Below, one piece after another: positions 14,065 to 52,287 of a stretch of 64,000 bases of DNA. The translations under genes and the position numbers were made by a program. How positions within the stretch are numbered: position 1 is the stretch's first letter; each line of letters starts with the position of its first letter. The notes under the pieces were generated by a model. It had not been told where the DNA came from. It ran no database searches and saw only the letters and a list, made by a program, of their open reading frames with translations. The stretch is taken from the NCBI GenBank assembly GCA_023249375.1, contig JAHFCT010000004.1, positions 1 to 64,000 of the forward strand, written 5' to 3'. Source of the stretch: Gemmatimonadota bacterium. GTDB taxonomy: Bacteria > Gemmatimonadota > Gemmatimonadetes > Gemmatimonadales > Gemmatimonadaceae.

Positions 14065-15630
14065 ATGGCGGACGTCGTTTCGCCCTCGGGCATTCCCATC
14101 GCCACCGTCTACGGGCCGGGCGACGCGTCGCCCGACACGGACATTGCGCTCGGCGCGCCGGGGCAGTTCCCGTTCACGCGCGGCGTGCAGCCCACGATGT
14201 ATCGCGGGCGCCTGTGGACCATGCGCCAATACGCGGGGTTCGGGACGGCCGCCGAGACGAACGCCCGGTTCAAGCTGCTGCTCGAAGCGGGACAGACGGG
14301 ACTGTCGGTCGCGTTCGACTTGCCGACGCAAATGGGTATTGACAGCGACAGCCCGCGCGCGCTGGGCGAGGTGGGCCGTGTGGGCGTTGCGATTGATACC
14401 GTGGAGGACATGCACGCGCTCCTGGCCGGCCTGCCGCTCGACAAGGTGAGCACCTCGATGACCATCAATGCGACGGCATCGACGCTGCTCGCGATGTACA
14501 TCGTCGTGGCGGAAGAGCGCGGGATCGCGCGCGACGCGCTGTCGGGGACCATTCAGAACGACATCCTCAAGGAATACGTCGCCCGCGGCACGTACGTGTA
14601 TCCCCCCAAGCCGTCGCTGGCGCTGATCGCCGAGACGTTTCGGTTCTGCGCCGCTGAAGTGCCGCAATGGAATCCCATCTCCATCTCGGGCTACCACATG
14701 CGCGAAGCGGGGGCGACGGCGGTGCAGGAGGTCGCGTTCACCTGTGCCAACGCGGTGGCGTACGTGCAGGCGGCGCTCGACGCGGGGCTGGCGATCGACG
14801 CGTTTGCGCCACGACTGTCGTTCTTTTTCGCCTGTCATAACGATCTCTTCGAGGAGGTCGCCAAGTTCCGCGCCGCGCGCCGCCTGTGGGCGCGGCTCAT
14901 GCGCGACCGCTTCGGCGCAAACGACGCGTCGTGCCGCATGCGCTTCCACACGCAGACCGGCGGCGTGACGCTCACCGCGCAGCAGCCGCTCAACAACGTG
15001 GTCCGCGTCGCCGTGCAGACGCTCGCCGCCGCGCTCGGCGGCACGCAGTCGCTGCACACCAATGGGTACGACGAGGCGCTGGCGCTGCCAACGGCCGAGG
15101 CGGCCACGCTCGCATTGCGCACGCAGCAGATCGTGGCCTTCGAGAGCGGCGTCGCCCAGACCGTTGATCCGCTGGCGGGCTCGTACTACGTCGAGTCGCT
15201 GACCAACGAGATCGAAGCACGCGCCCTCGACCTGATGGCGAAGGTGGAGGAACTCGGCGGTGCGGCGCGCGCCATCGAGGCCAGCTTTATGCAGGAAGAG
15301 ATCGGCAAGAGCGCCTACGCGCATCAGCTGAATGTCGAATCAGGACAGACCGTCGTCGTCGGCGTGAACAGGTTCGCCGATGGCGCGGCGCGTCCGGTGA
15401 TTCCCACGCCCGACTACCGCCAGCTCGAATCCGAGCAGAGGGCACGCGTCATTGCCGTGAAGGCGCAGCGCGATGGCGCGGCGGCCGCGAAGTGTCTGCA
15501 GGCGGTCGAGGACGCGGCGCGCAGCGGAGAGACGACGGTGATGCCGCTTCTCATCGACGCCGTGCGTGCCCGCGCGTCGGTGGGCGAGATCAGCGACGCG
15601 ATGGAACGCGTGTGGGGGAAGTATCGGTGA
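14065..15630 (+). CDS. Acyl-CoA mutase large subunit (methylmalonyl-CoA mutase type), no B12 domain
   Basis: 521 aa, TIM-barrel substrate-binding part of a B12-dependent acyl-CoA mutase. Motifs: [64 protein letters not shown] with the catalytic His, and [19 protein letters not shown]. It ends after VWGKYR and lacks the C-terminal cobalamin-binding domain (DxHxxG). The small subunit must therefore be encoded elsewhere, as in archaeal-type two-gene mutases. The reaction is probably succinyl-CoA/methylmalonyl-CoA, but isobutyryl- or other acyl-CoA mutases share this architecture, so the substrate is not settled. It abuts fbp. Confidence 0.9.
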
Positions 15631-15642
15631 CGAGCGAGGAGA

Positions 15643-15773
15643 GGGATCACGGATTGCGATCGATGATCGTGATTGTTGATCTGGATCGCGATGATCTCGG
15701 GCACCCGCCCGCTGTCCCATCGCGATCGGATTCCTGAATCGTCATCCTCCATCGCAATCCGTGATCCCCGTCC
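15643..15773. repeat. Palindromic copy of dispersed repeat family 1
   Basis: An 18-bp perfect inverted repeat: GGGATCACGGATTGCGAT (15643-15660) and its complement (15751-15768), 90 nt apart, with further imperfect symmetry inside. The right arm continues CGTCCTCAATCG and ends 10 nt before the GTG of the next gene. It fills the 152-nt gap after the mutase. The part from 15717 on is duplicated exactly at 16842. Confidence 0.8.
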
Positions 15774-15782
15774 TCAATCGCC

Positions 15783-16820
15783 GTGTATTCGAATTGCCTC
15801 TTCTGCCACGCTGACCTCGGAAGAAACGAGGCCGTCGAGAGTTTCCCCGTCGGCCGCCGCCTGGCCTATGACGTGGCCAACGGCCGCTTCTGGGTGATCT
15901 GCGCGGCGTGCAGGCGGTGGAACCTCTCGCCGCTCGAAGAACGTTGGGACGCGATGGACCAGTGCGAGCGGCTGTTCGAGCAGACGCGGCGCCGGATGAG
16001 CACCGACAACATCGGGCTCGCGCGTTTGAATGAAGGGACGGAATTGGTGCGCGTCGGCGCCGCGCTGCGCCCGGAGATGGCGGCGTGGCGGTTTGGCGAA
16101 CAACTCGCGGCGAGGCGGCGCAAGTACAGCTGGCTCATGGCGGGCGGCGCGGTGGCGACCGCCGGCCTCTACCTCGGCGTGAAGACGGCCGGCGCAGGTT
16201 TCCTCGACGGCGAGTGGGCTCGACAATCGGTGCAGAGAGCGTACGAGCGCGTGACGCGTCTTGTCCTGCCGATGCCGATGCCGATGCCGATGCCCATGCC
16301 AACGCCGTCCGCCTCGCCGGCCGCACCACGCATCGACGCGACACACGCCCGGAATGCTCGGCTTCAGTTTGAAGGCGAAGATCGAGGTCTTATTCTGACG
16401 GTGCCAACCGTTGCGGGCGTCAACGTGCGGTATGACGCCGAGGCTGCGACGCGTGTGCTCGCGAAGCTGCTCGCCAAGGTCAACGCGTCGGGCGGGCGAA
16501 AGGAAGACGAGAGGCTCGCGGTCGCCATGCTCGAGACGGCCGCGGCGCGCCGCGAACCGGACTTGTTCTCAAGCGTTGTCGAGGAGTACGCCGCCAAGTC
16601 GCTGCGGAAGAGAACACTCGGCAAGCTCGGGAGCACGCAGAGTCTGGCTCTAGAAATGGCTCTGAGCGAACAACAGGAACGCCAACTGCTGATCGGTGAG
16701 TTGATCGACCTGGAGTTTGCGTGGAAGGAAGCGGAGGAGCTTGCTCGCATCGCCGACACGCTGGTCCCGAGCTCCATCGAGCGCACACTCGCCAAGCTCA
16801 AAGCGCAGATGCGCGGGTAG
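15783..16820 (+). CDS. Zinc-ribbon membrane protein of unknown function, copy 1
   Basis: 345 aa from GTG 15783, which has no SD and follows the repeat directly. Residues 1-50 are a zinc-ribbon-like module with C5xxC8 and C40xxC43. Residues about 51-113 are charged and probably helical. A single TM segment lies about 117-140 (WLMAGGAVATAGLYLGVKTAG), then a Pro-Met run, then a mixed alpha/beta C-terminal region with a charged helical end (about 290-345). Topology: ribbon on one side of the membrane, C-terminal domain on the other. Its first 113 residues are identical to the tandem neighbour at 16908. I do not recognise a characterised family. Confidence 0.75.
   Translation: MYSNCLFCHADLGRNEAVESFPVGRRLAYDVANGRFWVICAACRRWNLSPLEERWDAMDQCERLFEQTRRRMSTDNIGLARLNEGTELVRVGAALRPEMAAWRFGEQLAARRRKYSWLMAGGAVATAGLYLGVKTAGAGFLDGEWARQSVQRAYERVTRLVLPMPMPMPMPMPTPSASPAAPRIDATHARNARLQFEGEDRGLILTVPTVAGVNVRYDAEAATRVLAKLLAKVNASGGRKEDERLAVAMLETAAARREPDLFSSVVEEYAAKSLRKRTLGKLGSTQSLALEMALSEQQERQLLIGELIDLEFAWKEAEELARIADTLVPSSIERTLAKLKAQMRG
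16269..16304 (+). repeat. Hexanucleotide microsatellite inside copy 1
   Basis: CCGATG is repeated four times, then CCCATG and CCAACG, encoding alternating Pro-Met. It keeps frame on expansion because the unit is 6 nt. The tandem paralogue has no such run. Confidence 0.85.
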
Positions 16821-16841
16821 TTCACCTGCACGGGCTGCGCA

Positions 16842-16898
16842 CCATCGCGATCGGATTCCTGAATCGTCATCCTCCATCGCAATCCGTGATCCCCGTCC
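16842..16898. repeat. Right half of family 1 element, duplicated with copy 2
   Basis: Identical to 15717-15773. Only the half nearest the gene is present; the left arm of the palindrome is missing. It ends 10 nt before the GTG at 16908, the same spacing as in copy 1. Confidence 0.85.
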
Positions 16899-16907
16899 TC
16901 AATCGCC

Positions 16908-17975
16908 GTGTATTCGAATTGCCTCTTCTGCCACGCTGACCTCGGAAGAAACGAGGCCGTCGAGAGTTTCCCCGTCGGCCGCCGCCTGGCCTATGACGTG
17001 GCCAACGGCCGCTTCTGGGTGATCTGCGCGGCGTGCAGGCGGTGGAACCTCTCGCCGCTCGAAGAACGTTGGGACGCGATGGACCAGTGCGAGCGGCTGT
17101 TCGAGCAGACGCGGCGCCGGATGAGCACCGACAACATCGGGCTCGCGCGCTTGAATGAAGGGACGGAATTGGTGCGCGTCGGCGCTGCGCTGCGCCCGGA
17201 GATGGCGGCGTGGCGGTTTGGCGAACAATTGGCCGCGCGTCGACGCAGTTACCGATGGGTCATGGCGGGCAGCGTCGTCGCCACCGCGGGGCTTTACATC
17301 GGCGTCAAGACGGCAGGTATGGGATTTGTCGCCGGCAACTGGGCGTGGAAGCTGGTGCAGGGCGCGTACGAGCGCGCCACGCGCATCGTCATCCCGACAC
17401 CGGATGAGCGGCTGGTGGAGCCGAGCGTGCTCAACCGCCGGGTGACGGAAGTGGTCGGGCTCGCTCGGCCTGAGATCGTCACGCCGCGCATCGAGACCAA
17501 ACACGCGCGCGGCGCGACGCTGGCGCGCGCGGATTCGGCCTCCGGTTTTCTCGTGACGCTGTCCACGGTGGAAAAGGTGCAAGTGCGCTATGGCACGGTC
17601 GCCACCGAACGCGTGCTTCCGAAGCTGCTCGCGAAGATCAATCGGTCGGGTGGCAAGCCAGTCGACGAACGCATCGCCGTTGGGGTGCTTGAACGCGTGT
17701 CGGGCGATCACGTTCCCGACCTCTACACGGGGCTTATGAACGAGTGGGCACGCACGGACTTCATCAACAAGCCGCTCAAGGACTATGGCTGGCGCACGCT
17801 CGCGCTTGAGATGGCGCTCCAGGAGCAGCGCGAACGCGAACTGCTCGCGGGGGAGCTCTTGGATCTCGAACTGGCGTGGAAAGAAGCCGAGGAACTCGCC
17901 CGTATTGCCGACACCCTCGTGCCGTCGTCGATCGATCGCGCGCTGGCGAAGCTCAAGGCGCGAATGGACCGGTAG
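16908..17975 (+). CDS. Zinc-ribbon membrane protein of unknown function, copy 2
   Basis: 355 aa from GTG 16908. Same layout as copy 1: C5xxC8 and C40xxC43, a TM segment about 118-140 (WVMAGSVVATAGLYIGVKTAG), a linker, and a C-terminal region. Residues 1-113 are identical to copy 1, while the TM, linker and most of the C-terminal part have clearly diverged. Similarity rises again at the end (WKEAEELARIADTLVPSSI in both). At DNA level the near-identity starts at 16842 in the intergenic repeat and stops near 17229. Function unknown; probably the same kind of protein with a different ligand-facing part. Confidence 0.75.
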   Translation: MYSNCLFCHADLGRNEAVESFPVGRRLAYDVANGRFWVICAACRRWNLSPLEERWDAMDQCERLFEQTRRRMSTDNIGLARLNEGTELVRVGAALRPEMAAWRFGEQLAARRRSYRWVMAGSVVATAGLYIGVKTAGMGFVAGNWAWKLVQGAYERATRIVIPTPDERLVEPSVLNRRVTEVVGLARPEIVTPRIETKHARGATLARADSASGFLVTLSTVEKVQVRYGTVATERVLPKLLAKINRSGGKPVDERIAVGVLERVSGDHVPDLYTGLMNEWARTDFINKPLKDYGWRTLALEMALQEQRERELLAGELLDLELAWKEAEELARIADTLVPSSIDRALAKLKARMDR

Positions 17976-18110: not shown

Positions 18111-18593
18111 ATGCCCACGTACGAGTATCGTTGCGCCAACGGCCACGATTTTGAGGAGTTCGTGCTCAAGATGAGTGCGGCCAAGTCCGAGTTGCCTTGT
18201 CCGACCTGCGGATCGCGCGGTGAACGCCGCATGTCTGTCGGCGGCGGCCTGCTGTTCAAGGGCTCCGGCTTCTACATCACGGACTACGGCAAGGACGGCA
18301 AGAAATCGGCCGCATCGCCGAACGGCACCTCGTCCAAGAGCGACGGTGGCGCAAGCAACAGCGGTGCGAGCGACAGCGGCGCAAGCAACAGCGGCACGAG
18401 CAAGAGCGGTGCGAGCGGCAGCGGCGCGAGTGATGGCGCGAGAGGCGACTCGGCCAAGCGCGACAGCGCGAAGAGCGATGGCGCGAAGAGCGATGGCGCC
18501 GGCAGGGACGCTTCCAAGGCCGAGACAGCCAAGTCCTCAGACGCCAAGCCGTCGGGTGGATCCCCTGCGAAGCCTTCCAAGGGCTCCGAATGA
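18111..18593 (+). CDS. FmdB-type zinc ribbon protein with long Ser/Gly/Ala tail
   Basis: 160 aa. Residues 1-60 are an FmdB-family ribbon: MPTYEYRC, CPTCGS (two Cys pairs), then GGGLLFKGSGFYITDY. The usual family length is about 70-110 aa. Here residues from about 68 form a long disordered tail of five-residue units (GASNS, GASDS, GTSKS and so on) followed by Lys/Asp/Ser units. Role of FmdB ribbons is unclear; some are annotated as regulators. A TAAGTT hexamer at 18069-18074 may be a -10. The TGA overlaps the argS ATG, making this the first gene of the long train to 33983. Confidence 0.85.
   Translation: MPTYEYRCANGHDFEEFVLKMSAAKSELPCPTCGSRGERRMSVGGGLLFKGSGFYITDYGKDGKKSAASPNGTSSKSDGGASNSGASDSGASNSGTSKSGASGSGASDGARGDSAKRDSAKSDGAKSDGAGRDASKAETAKSSDAKPSGGSPAKPSKGSE
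18348..18437 (+). repeat. Six 15-nt units in the FmdB-like gene
   Basis: In-frame units encode Gly-Ala/Thr-Ser-X-Ser/Gly. A second, looser set of 15-nt units (AKRDS, AKSDG, AKSDG) follows. Expansion or contraction would not disturb the frame. Confidence 0.8.
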
Positions 18594-42117: not shown

Positions 42118-42172
42118 ATCGAAATCCAATTCCAAAATCGAAATCCTGCATCGAAATCCGTGATCCCTGTCC
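42118..42172. repeat. Family 1 repeat before recO
   Basis: ATCGAAATCC occurs three times (42118, 42137, 42150). The last runs on as CGTGATCCCTGTCC to form a 23-nt arm that is the exact complement of 51894-51916. It points to recO and ends 15 nt before its GTG. A TATCTT hexamer (42074-42079) lies upstream. Confidence 0.8.
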
Positions 42173-42187
42173 TCAATCGTCGTCCGT

Positions 42188-51848: not shown

Positions 51849-51893
51849 GCTTTTAAGGTGGCATTCCGGGACATGGGCGGCAACTTCGATTCA

Positions 51894-52013
51894 GGACAGG
51901 GATCACGGATTTCGATTTAGGACTTGGATGGAGGATTTCGATTGCGATGATCGGTGCGATCGAAATCGAATTCGCGAATCGAGATCCGAGATCGAAATCC
52001 GTGATCTTTGTCC
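51894..52013. repeat. Palindromic copy of family 1 repeat before tRNA-Ser(CGA)
   Basis: Left arm 51894-51916 and right arm 51991-52013 (23 nt each) are inverted with two mismatches. The left arm is the exact complement of 42150-42172. Inner sequence is rich in TTCGATT/AATCGAA. The nearest right-hand feature is a tRNA 53 nt away. A 9-bp hairpin (52020-52045) follows. Confidence 0.85.
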
Positions 52014-52065
52014 AAAATCTCAGTTGACCGTGCCTCGTCAACTGAATATTCTTCAAGGCTCGCTT

Positions 52066-52152: not shown

Positions 52153-52221
52153 CTCGAAGTGGACGCCCACGCGTCGGTGCCCGCACCGGCGCGTTGTCGT
52201 AGCTGACCCCGCAGAGCAATC

Positions 52222-52280
52222 GCCATCGGAATCCGGAATCCCGATCCTCGATCGGTATCCGAGATCCGTGATCCTCAATC
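52222..52280. repeat. Degenerate family 1 repeat before tRNA-Ser(GGA)
   Basis: ATCGGAATCC and ATCCGTGATCCTCAATCG are family 1 words with a 6-nt deletion of CTGTCC. It ends just 7-8 nt before the tRNA and points toward it. The other 70 nt between the two tRNAs show no gene. Confidence 0.6.
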
Positions 52281-52287
52281 GTAGTTC

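Follow-up and report, generated by a model that had tools for sequence, protein, structure and literature searches.

A young 5′ tract shared by two tandem genes with divergent C-terminal parts in a Gemmatimonadota bacterium

In the stretch of DNA that we analysed from a soil and water bacterium of the phylum Gemmatimonadota – 64,000 nucleotides, hereafter the window – two tandem genes, a and b, begin with almost the same sequence and continue as distant relatives (Table 1). The question raised by this locus is how one young 5′ end came to stand before two old C-terminal parts. Our reading, to which we give a probability of about 0.8, is that recent homologous recombination gave a and b the same young 5′ module, which comprises a repeat arm, the translation start and an N-terminal putative zinc-ribbon block and is joined to two old C-terminal parts. 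As gene conversion alone the case would be ordinary. Comparison with related genomes replaces an apparently isolated conversion with a set of comparable products – single-copy species carrying different C-terminal classes – and a possible tandem intermediate.

The near-identical tract and its edges

Compared pairwise, the two copies of the tract are 387 nt long and differ at two positions, 16025 (T/C) and 16061 (C/T), both third codon positions and both silent; the longest mismatch-free stretch is 308 nt. The first 66 nt are non-coding, lie upstream of the GTG start and are identical in both copies. The base preceding the tract is mismatched (C/A). At the other end 16104/17229 is the third mismatch, beyond which identity drops to approximately 0.7 and then to 0.5. 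Nucleotide identity stops at codon 107, while codons 108–113 differ silently and leave the residues unchanged; the proteins are identical over residues 1–113, and their C-terminal parts share 54% of their amino acids.

Table 1. Features of the locus (window coordinates)
Feature	Position	Strand	Remarks
Methylmalonyl-CoA mutase family gene (mut)	14065..15630	+	left neighbour, syntenic; PF01642
Imperfect palindromic element, ~147 bp	15636..15782	+	lies between mut and a; inverted left arm, 15636-15692; right arm, 15717-15782
Tract copy 1	15717..16103	+	right arm and codons 1-107 of gene a
Gene a, 345 aa	15783..16820	+	CxxC/CxxC N-terminal part, hydrophobic helix, divergent C-terminal part outside the b/G008/G009 class
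C-terminal part of a and the following 21 nt (16821-16841)	16104..16841	+	missing in relatives with one copy, should b be the resident allele
Tract copy 2	16842..17228	+	right arm and codons 1-107 of gene b
Single right arm	16842..16907	+	between genes a and b; identical to 15717-15782
Gene b, 355 aa	16908..17975	+	C-terminal part falls with that of the single gene in G008 and in G009
FmdB-type zinc-ribbon protein gene (fmdB)	18111..18593	+	right neighbour, syntenic; PF09723

Much of this geometry had been read correctly in the initial annotation: the two silent differences and the 66 intergenic nucleotides stand, as does the right end near the transmembrane segment. Some details shift. The tract, put at about 388 nt, is real and one nucleotide shorter, since 16104/17229 is already mismatched; the 113 identical residues hold for the protein, nucleotide identity ending earlier; and the diverged portion, put at three quarters of the genes, is closer to two thirds.

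The left edge of the tract coincides with that of an arm belonging to a dispersed palindromic repeat. We located the arms, which lie on opposite strands, with a profile built from genomic copies: a complete palindrome precedes gene a, only the right arm precedes gene b, and no arm follows gene b. Folded as RNA, 15636–15785 is predicted to form a strong hairpin (-82.2 kcal/mol, z -7.2). The tract had been thought to start inside the repeat element, and it does so precisely at the edge of the right arm. Because the edge falls at the arm's start, the two upstream regions are homologous no further than this point; the left edge is an end of homology and no free conversion breakpoint.

Could the tract be a collapsed or chimeric repeat of the assembly? 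The genome is a draft of 120 contigs, and an exact match of 308 nt can be a difficulty for short-read assembly. Yet the copies differ in their flanks on both sides, three mismatches are resolved within 80 nt, the frame is correct and both genes are intact, and the right edge matches a break seen in other genomes. We consider an artefact improbable.

The nature of the encoded protein is indicated in outline. Cysteines C5, C8, C40 and C43 are invariant and suggest a zinc ribbon in the N-terminal part. An AlphaFold model of modest confidence (pLDDT 67.6) places a long helix at residues 97–133, spanning the hydrophobic segment; after a linker and a small alpha/beta region comes another long helix at the C-terminus. 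Searches of Pfam, NCBIfam and PADLOC gave no family above cut-off; sequence matches to the PDB were at chance level and the model found no match at E < 0.5, and these absent matches ruled out naming the protein. Within the linker of gene a (16268–16302) lies a short (ATGCCG)n-like run encoding MPMPMPMPMP, where gene b and the congeners are unrelated in sequence. The FmdB-like neighbour, for its part, carries a long low-complexity Ser/Gly/Ala/Lys/Asp tail built from short repeats (18290–18590).

Silent sites and the age of the tract

Identity of this kind might be held by selection, through constraint on the protein or on the DNA or RNA of the first 387 nt, and the N-terminal part is indeed the most conserved part of the protein (77–88% amino-acid identity in the genus). 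Silent sites speak against this. Among degenerate codons encoding the same amino acid, a and b differ silently at 2 of 100 in codons 1–107 and at 71 of 124 thereafter; up to 75 codons in succession lack any silent difference, whereas the maximum in 100,000 shuffles was 39 and none was as long. In orthologues, 30–49% of such codons within codons 1–107 differ silently, against 2% between a and b. Expressed as synonymous distance, a/b dS is 0.027 over codons 1–107; over codons 1–113 the orthologues nearest to gene b, those of G008 and G009, stand at 0.72–0.78 from it (approximately 0.46–0.49 silent differences per synonymous site), and other congeners at 0.72–1.44. The non-coding arm tells the same way: the sequences upstream of the orthologous genes have diverged visibly, unlike the identical 66-nt arms of a and b.

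Since the silent sites of orthologues have diverged across codons 1–113, protein constraint cannot explain the identity of a and b. Selection for identity of the zinc ribbon, which the initial annotation had kept as an alternative, is ruled out by these sites, and we give constraint of any kind a negligible chance; the alignment of orthologues and the comparison of synonymous distances that it had proposed supply the answer. What the data support is recent homologous, non-reciprocal recombination as the source of the tract. The earlier diagnosis of recent gene conversion survives in that sense, with conversion between resident paralogues as one of two routes that fit.

A recent tandem duplication of the whole gene, followed by very fast divergence of one C-terminal part, would account for the layout: arm-gene-arm-gene is the product expected of unequal crossing-over between flanking arms. 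But silent divergence also jumps at codon 107, with dS over the C-terminal part reaching 1.65 between a and b, more than the 1.01 between b and G009. Fast protein evolution leaves silent divergence unraised, and recent duplication is therefore refuted as the whole story; we regard it as very improbable, in agreement with the original view that a plain duplication would not fit. The duplication itself may be old.

The locus in relatives and its C-terminal classes

The order comEC-fbp-mut-X-fmdB-argS-pfkB, in which X stands for the orthologous gene, is kept in nine congeners as far as their contigs reach. All nine carry a single X between mut and fmdB and none has a second copy; the tenth congener (G003) has no match to X. 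Repeat arms accompany the gene. An arm in the gap between mut and X was scored by the profile in seven of the nine (G001, G004, G005, G006, G008, G009 and G010), or eight if G002 is counted, where a short sequence is arm-like by eye and unscored; G007 has 36 nt in this gap. Downstream of X, arm-like sequence in direct orientation is found in all nine, weakly so in G006 (E 0.085), G009 (E 0.35) and G007. The single arm between a and b sits at the place of this downstream sequence.

Trees of the two parts of the gene tell different histories. The tree of the N-terminal part and tract pairs a with b (100/99); forcing b together with G008/G009 is rejected there (p 1.4e-5). In the C-terminal part, b groups with G008 and G009 to the exclusion of a (100/98 for protein, 93/97 for DNA, 95/96 in a 10-row protein set), and b, G008 and G009 have in common a one-residue deletion that a lacks. 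Gene a falls just outside this group with modest support (83/68), and a sister relationship of a and b in the C-terminal part is rejected only moderately (AU p 0.029, 0.033 and 0.055).

The same disagreement runs through the genus. The flanking genes place G008 and G005 as sisters (100/100), in accord with the unlinked gyrB (93/96), yet between their X genes identity is 95% in the N-terminal part and 54% in the C-terminal part. At the nucleotide level it is 0.89, then 0.55 past codon 110 and 0.80 past codon 326. The pairs G009/G001, G002/G010 and G002/G004 break at codons 112–117 and 324–327, and pairs of different class overall at 107–117 and 324–327; the same-class pairs b/G008, b/G009 and G005/G001 have no such breaks. 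Holding species pairs together in the C-terminal part is rejected for G008+G005 (p 8e-28), G009+G001 (p 4e-9) and G002+G010 (p 7e-6), and the C-terminal classes are in turn rejected as groupings of species by gyrB (p 0.013 and 1e-5). We used gyrB as the species marker, rpoB being without a match in the genome under study and RecA missing in G008. (The 95.9% complete draft has no match to PF00562, RNA polymerase beta, which the control genomes have, as do nine of the ten congeners; probably this is an assembly gap.)

The N-terminal part, by comparison, fits the species relationships across the genus, as expected of vertical inheritance. Conflict with the species tree behind a vertically inherited N-terminal part therefore means that the middle and C-terminal part either passed from one species to another or derives from the sorting of old paralogues. 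A variable middle is bounded by conserved 5′ and 3′ blocks, and between genes of different class the breaks lie at these blocks; break positions partly mark conservation, the N-terminal block and the C-terminal end being more conserved, and the tree conflicts are independent of that. The a/b break at codon 107 falls within the same set as the breaks between species; the pair would seem to show a single stage of exchange on a wider scale. The exchange of classes may also point to diversifying selection on the variable middle.

Routes to the pair and known parallels

Two routes could have produced the pair. By the first, which we favour at about even odds, the locus gained the C-terminal part of a second allele, and the resident arm and N-terminal part were used again in front of it. 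The incoming DNA would have been another allele, comprising the C-terminal part of a and its downstream arm. One end would have paired in the conserved N-terminal block near codon 107; at the other, the downstream arm would have paired with the resident upstream arm on the sister chromosome. In a single step the arm and N-terminal part would then be present twice, giving mut-palindrome-N-C(a)-arm-N-C(b)-fmdB. With b as the resident, comparison with single-copy loci leads us to infer that 16104–16841 is an insertion, and the genome does possess recA.

By the second route, to which we give somewhat less than even odds, a and b are an ancient tandem pair, kept here and lost in relatives, in which one gene recently received the 5′ part of the other, from the end of homology at the arm to codon 107: classical intragenomic conversion. 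The tract pattern and the phylogenetic conflict suit it, the tract being sharp, with a silent distance near zero inside and old outside, and the copies being sisters within it and, with the moderate C-terminal AU values of 0.03–0.055, not beyond. The position of a just outside b, G008 and G009 is what an old duplicate would show. As to prior residence of both copies, there is a single copy in nine congeners, and the lineage of a's C-terminal part is old. In other genera, tandem pairs of this zinc-ribbon family are frequent, with 17 loci in other genomes of the family (L058, L061 and L093–L107), and this too counts for conversion. Against it, the lack of a second copy in congeners demands losses in G008, G009 and others as well. 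Moreover, none of the 17 other pairs has a homogenised young tract: their N-terminal parts, although always more alike than the C-terminal parts (0.44–0.59), have nucleotide identities of 0.64–0.83.

Given nine single-copy congeners and the conflict of classes, acquisition of a second allele needs fewer events; and since different classes stand behind the same N-terminal block across species, acquisition with a re-used 5′ module is at least as likely as conversion. It has so far no source: among 148 family genomes there is no donor with a C-terminal part like that of a (best 58% identity), eight further genome-contig loci hold none nearer, and in its own genome this part matches genes a and b only, with no orphan tips. 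As to the direction of copying, the shared N-terminal part fits either source.

By either route, the 387-nt direct repeat would now permit deletion back to a single gene, and such deletion would offer single-copy species a way to switch C-terminal class. From here it is tempting to picture a genus-wide allele-switching locus, in which the middle and C-terminal module is exchanged behind a fixed N-terminal block, the flanking arms serve as the second region of homology, and a/b is an intermediate with two alleles, later to be reduced to a single gene. We offer this picture tentatively, with the odds against it. Were it true, it would point to diversifying selection on an uncharacterised membrane protein in a phylum that is common in the environment, and to dispersed palindromic repeats as sites of recombination.

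Recombination through conserved blocks is already known; here it is met in an uncharacterised zinc-ribbon membrane-protein family. Tandem non-identical paralogues in the esaG and tipC immunity arrays of type VII secretion (T7SS) recombine via conserved blocks, with changes in copy number and formation of mosaics; in tipC the blocks lie at the 5′ and 3′ ends (PMC9484751). The a/b locus resembles them in its conserved 5′ and 3′ blocks around a variable middle. It differs in that the database searches indicated no toxin or immunity function, its congeners are single-copy, classes are exchanged between species, and repeat arms flank the gene. In rhs genes, N-terminal core and variable C-terminus are decoupled and alternative C-termini join by homologous recombination (PMC2935791). 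Here too a conserved N-terminal part is decoupled from the C-terminal part, but orphan C-terminal tips are absent from the genome, a conserved C-terminal block is retained, and both genes are complete and encode a membrane protein (345 aa in a). The a/b case works like T7SS immunity and rhs recombination, but we claim membership in neither. For transformation merodiploids the proposed mechanism is that donor DNA pairs with its locus at one end and, through a repeat at the other, with a further copy of that repeat on the sister chromosome, giving tandem duplication, as demonstrated in pneumococcus for duplications of ~100–900 kb with IS861 remnants (PMC3784515); the a/b unit is ~1.1 kb with 65-bp arms, and for it the mechanism is inferred only.

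The element that supplies the arms invites comparison with REPINs, which are dispersed intergenic elements of two inverted arms in tens of copies (PMC3116915). It too has two inverted arms and many dispersed copies, but its arms measure ~65 bp, against 20–40 bp with a GTAG or CGTC tag in REPINs, and a search of its 95.9% complete genome with PF01797 (Y1_Tnp/RAYT transposase) gave no match; a RAYT transposase was accordingly rejected for it. With a total length of ~150 bp, the element has 83 matches in its own genome, both strands counted. Genome-wide, matches to the element query mostly begin at query base 1 to 3. Nine of the ten congeners searched have 2–24 matches and G003 has none; elsewhere in the window the element recurs at 42118–42179, 51887–52019 and 52219–52281.
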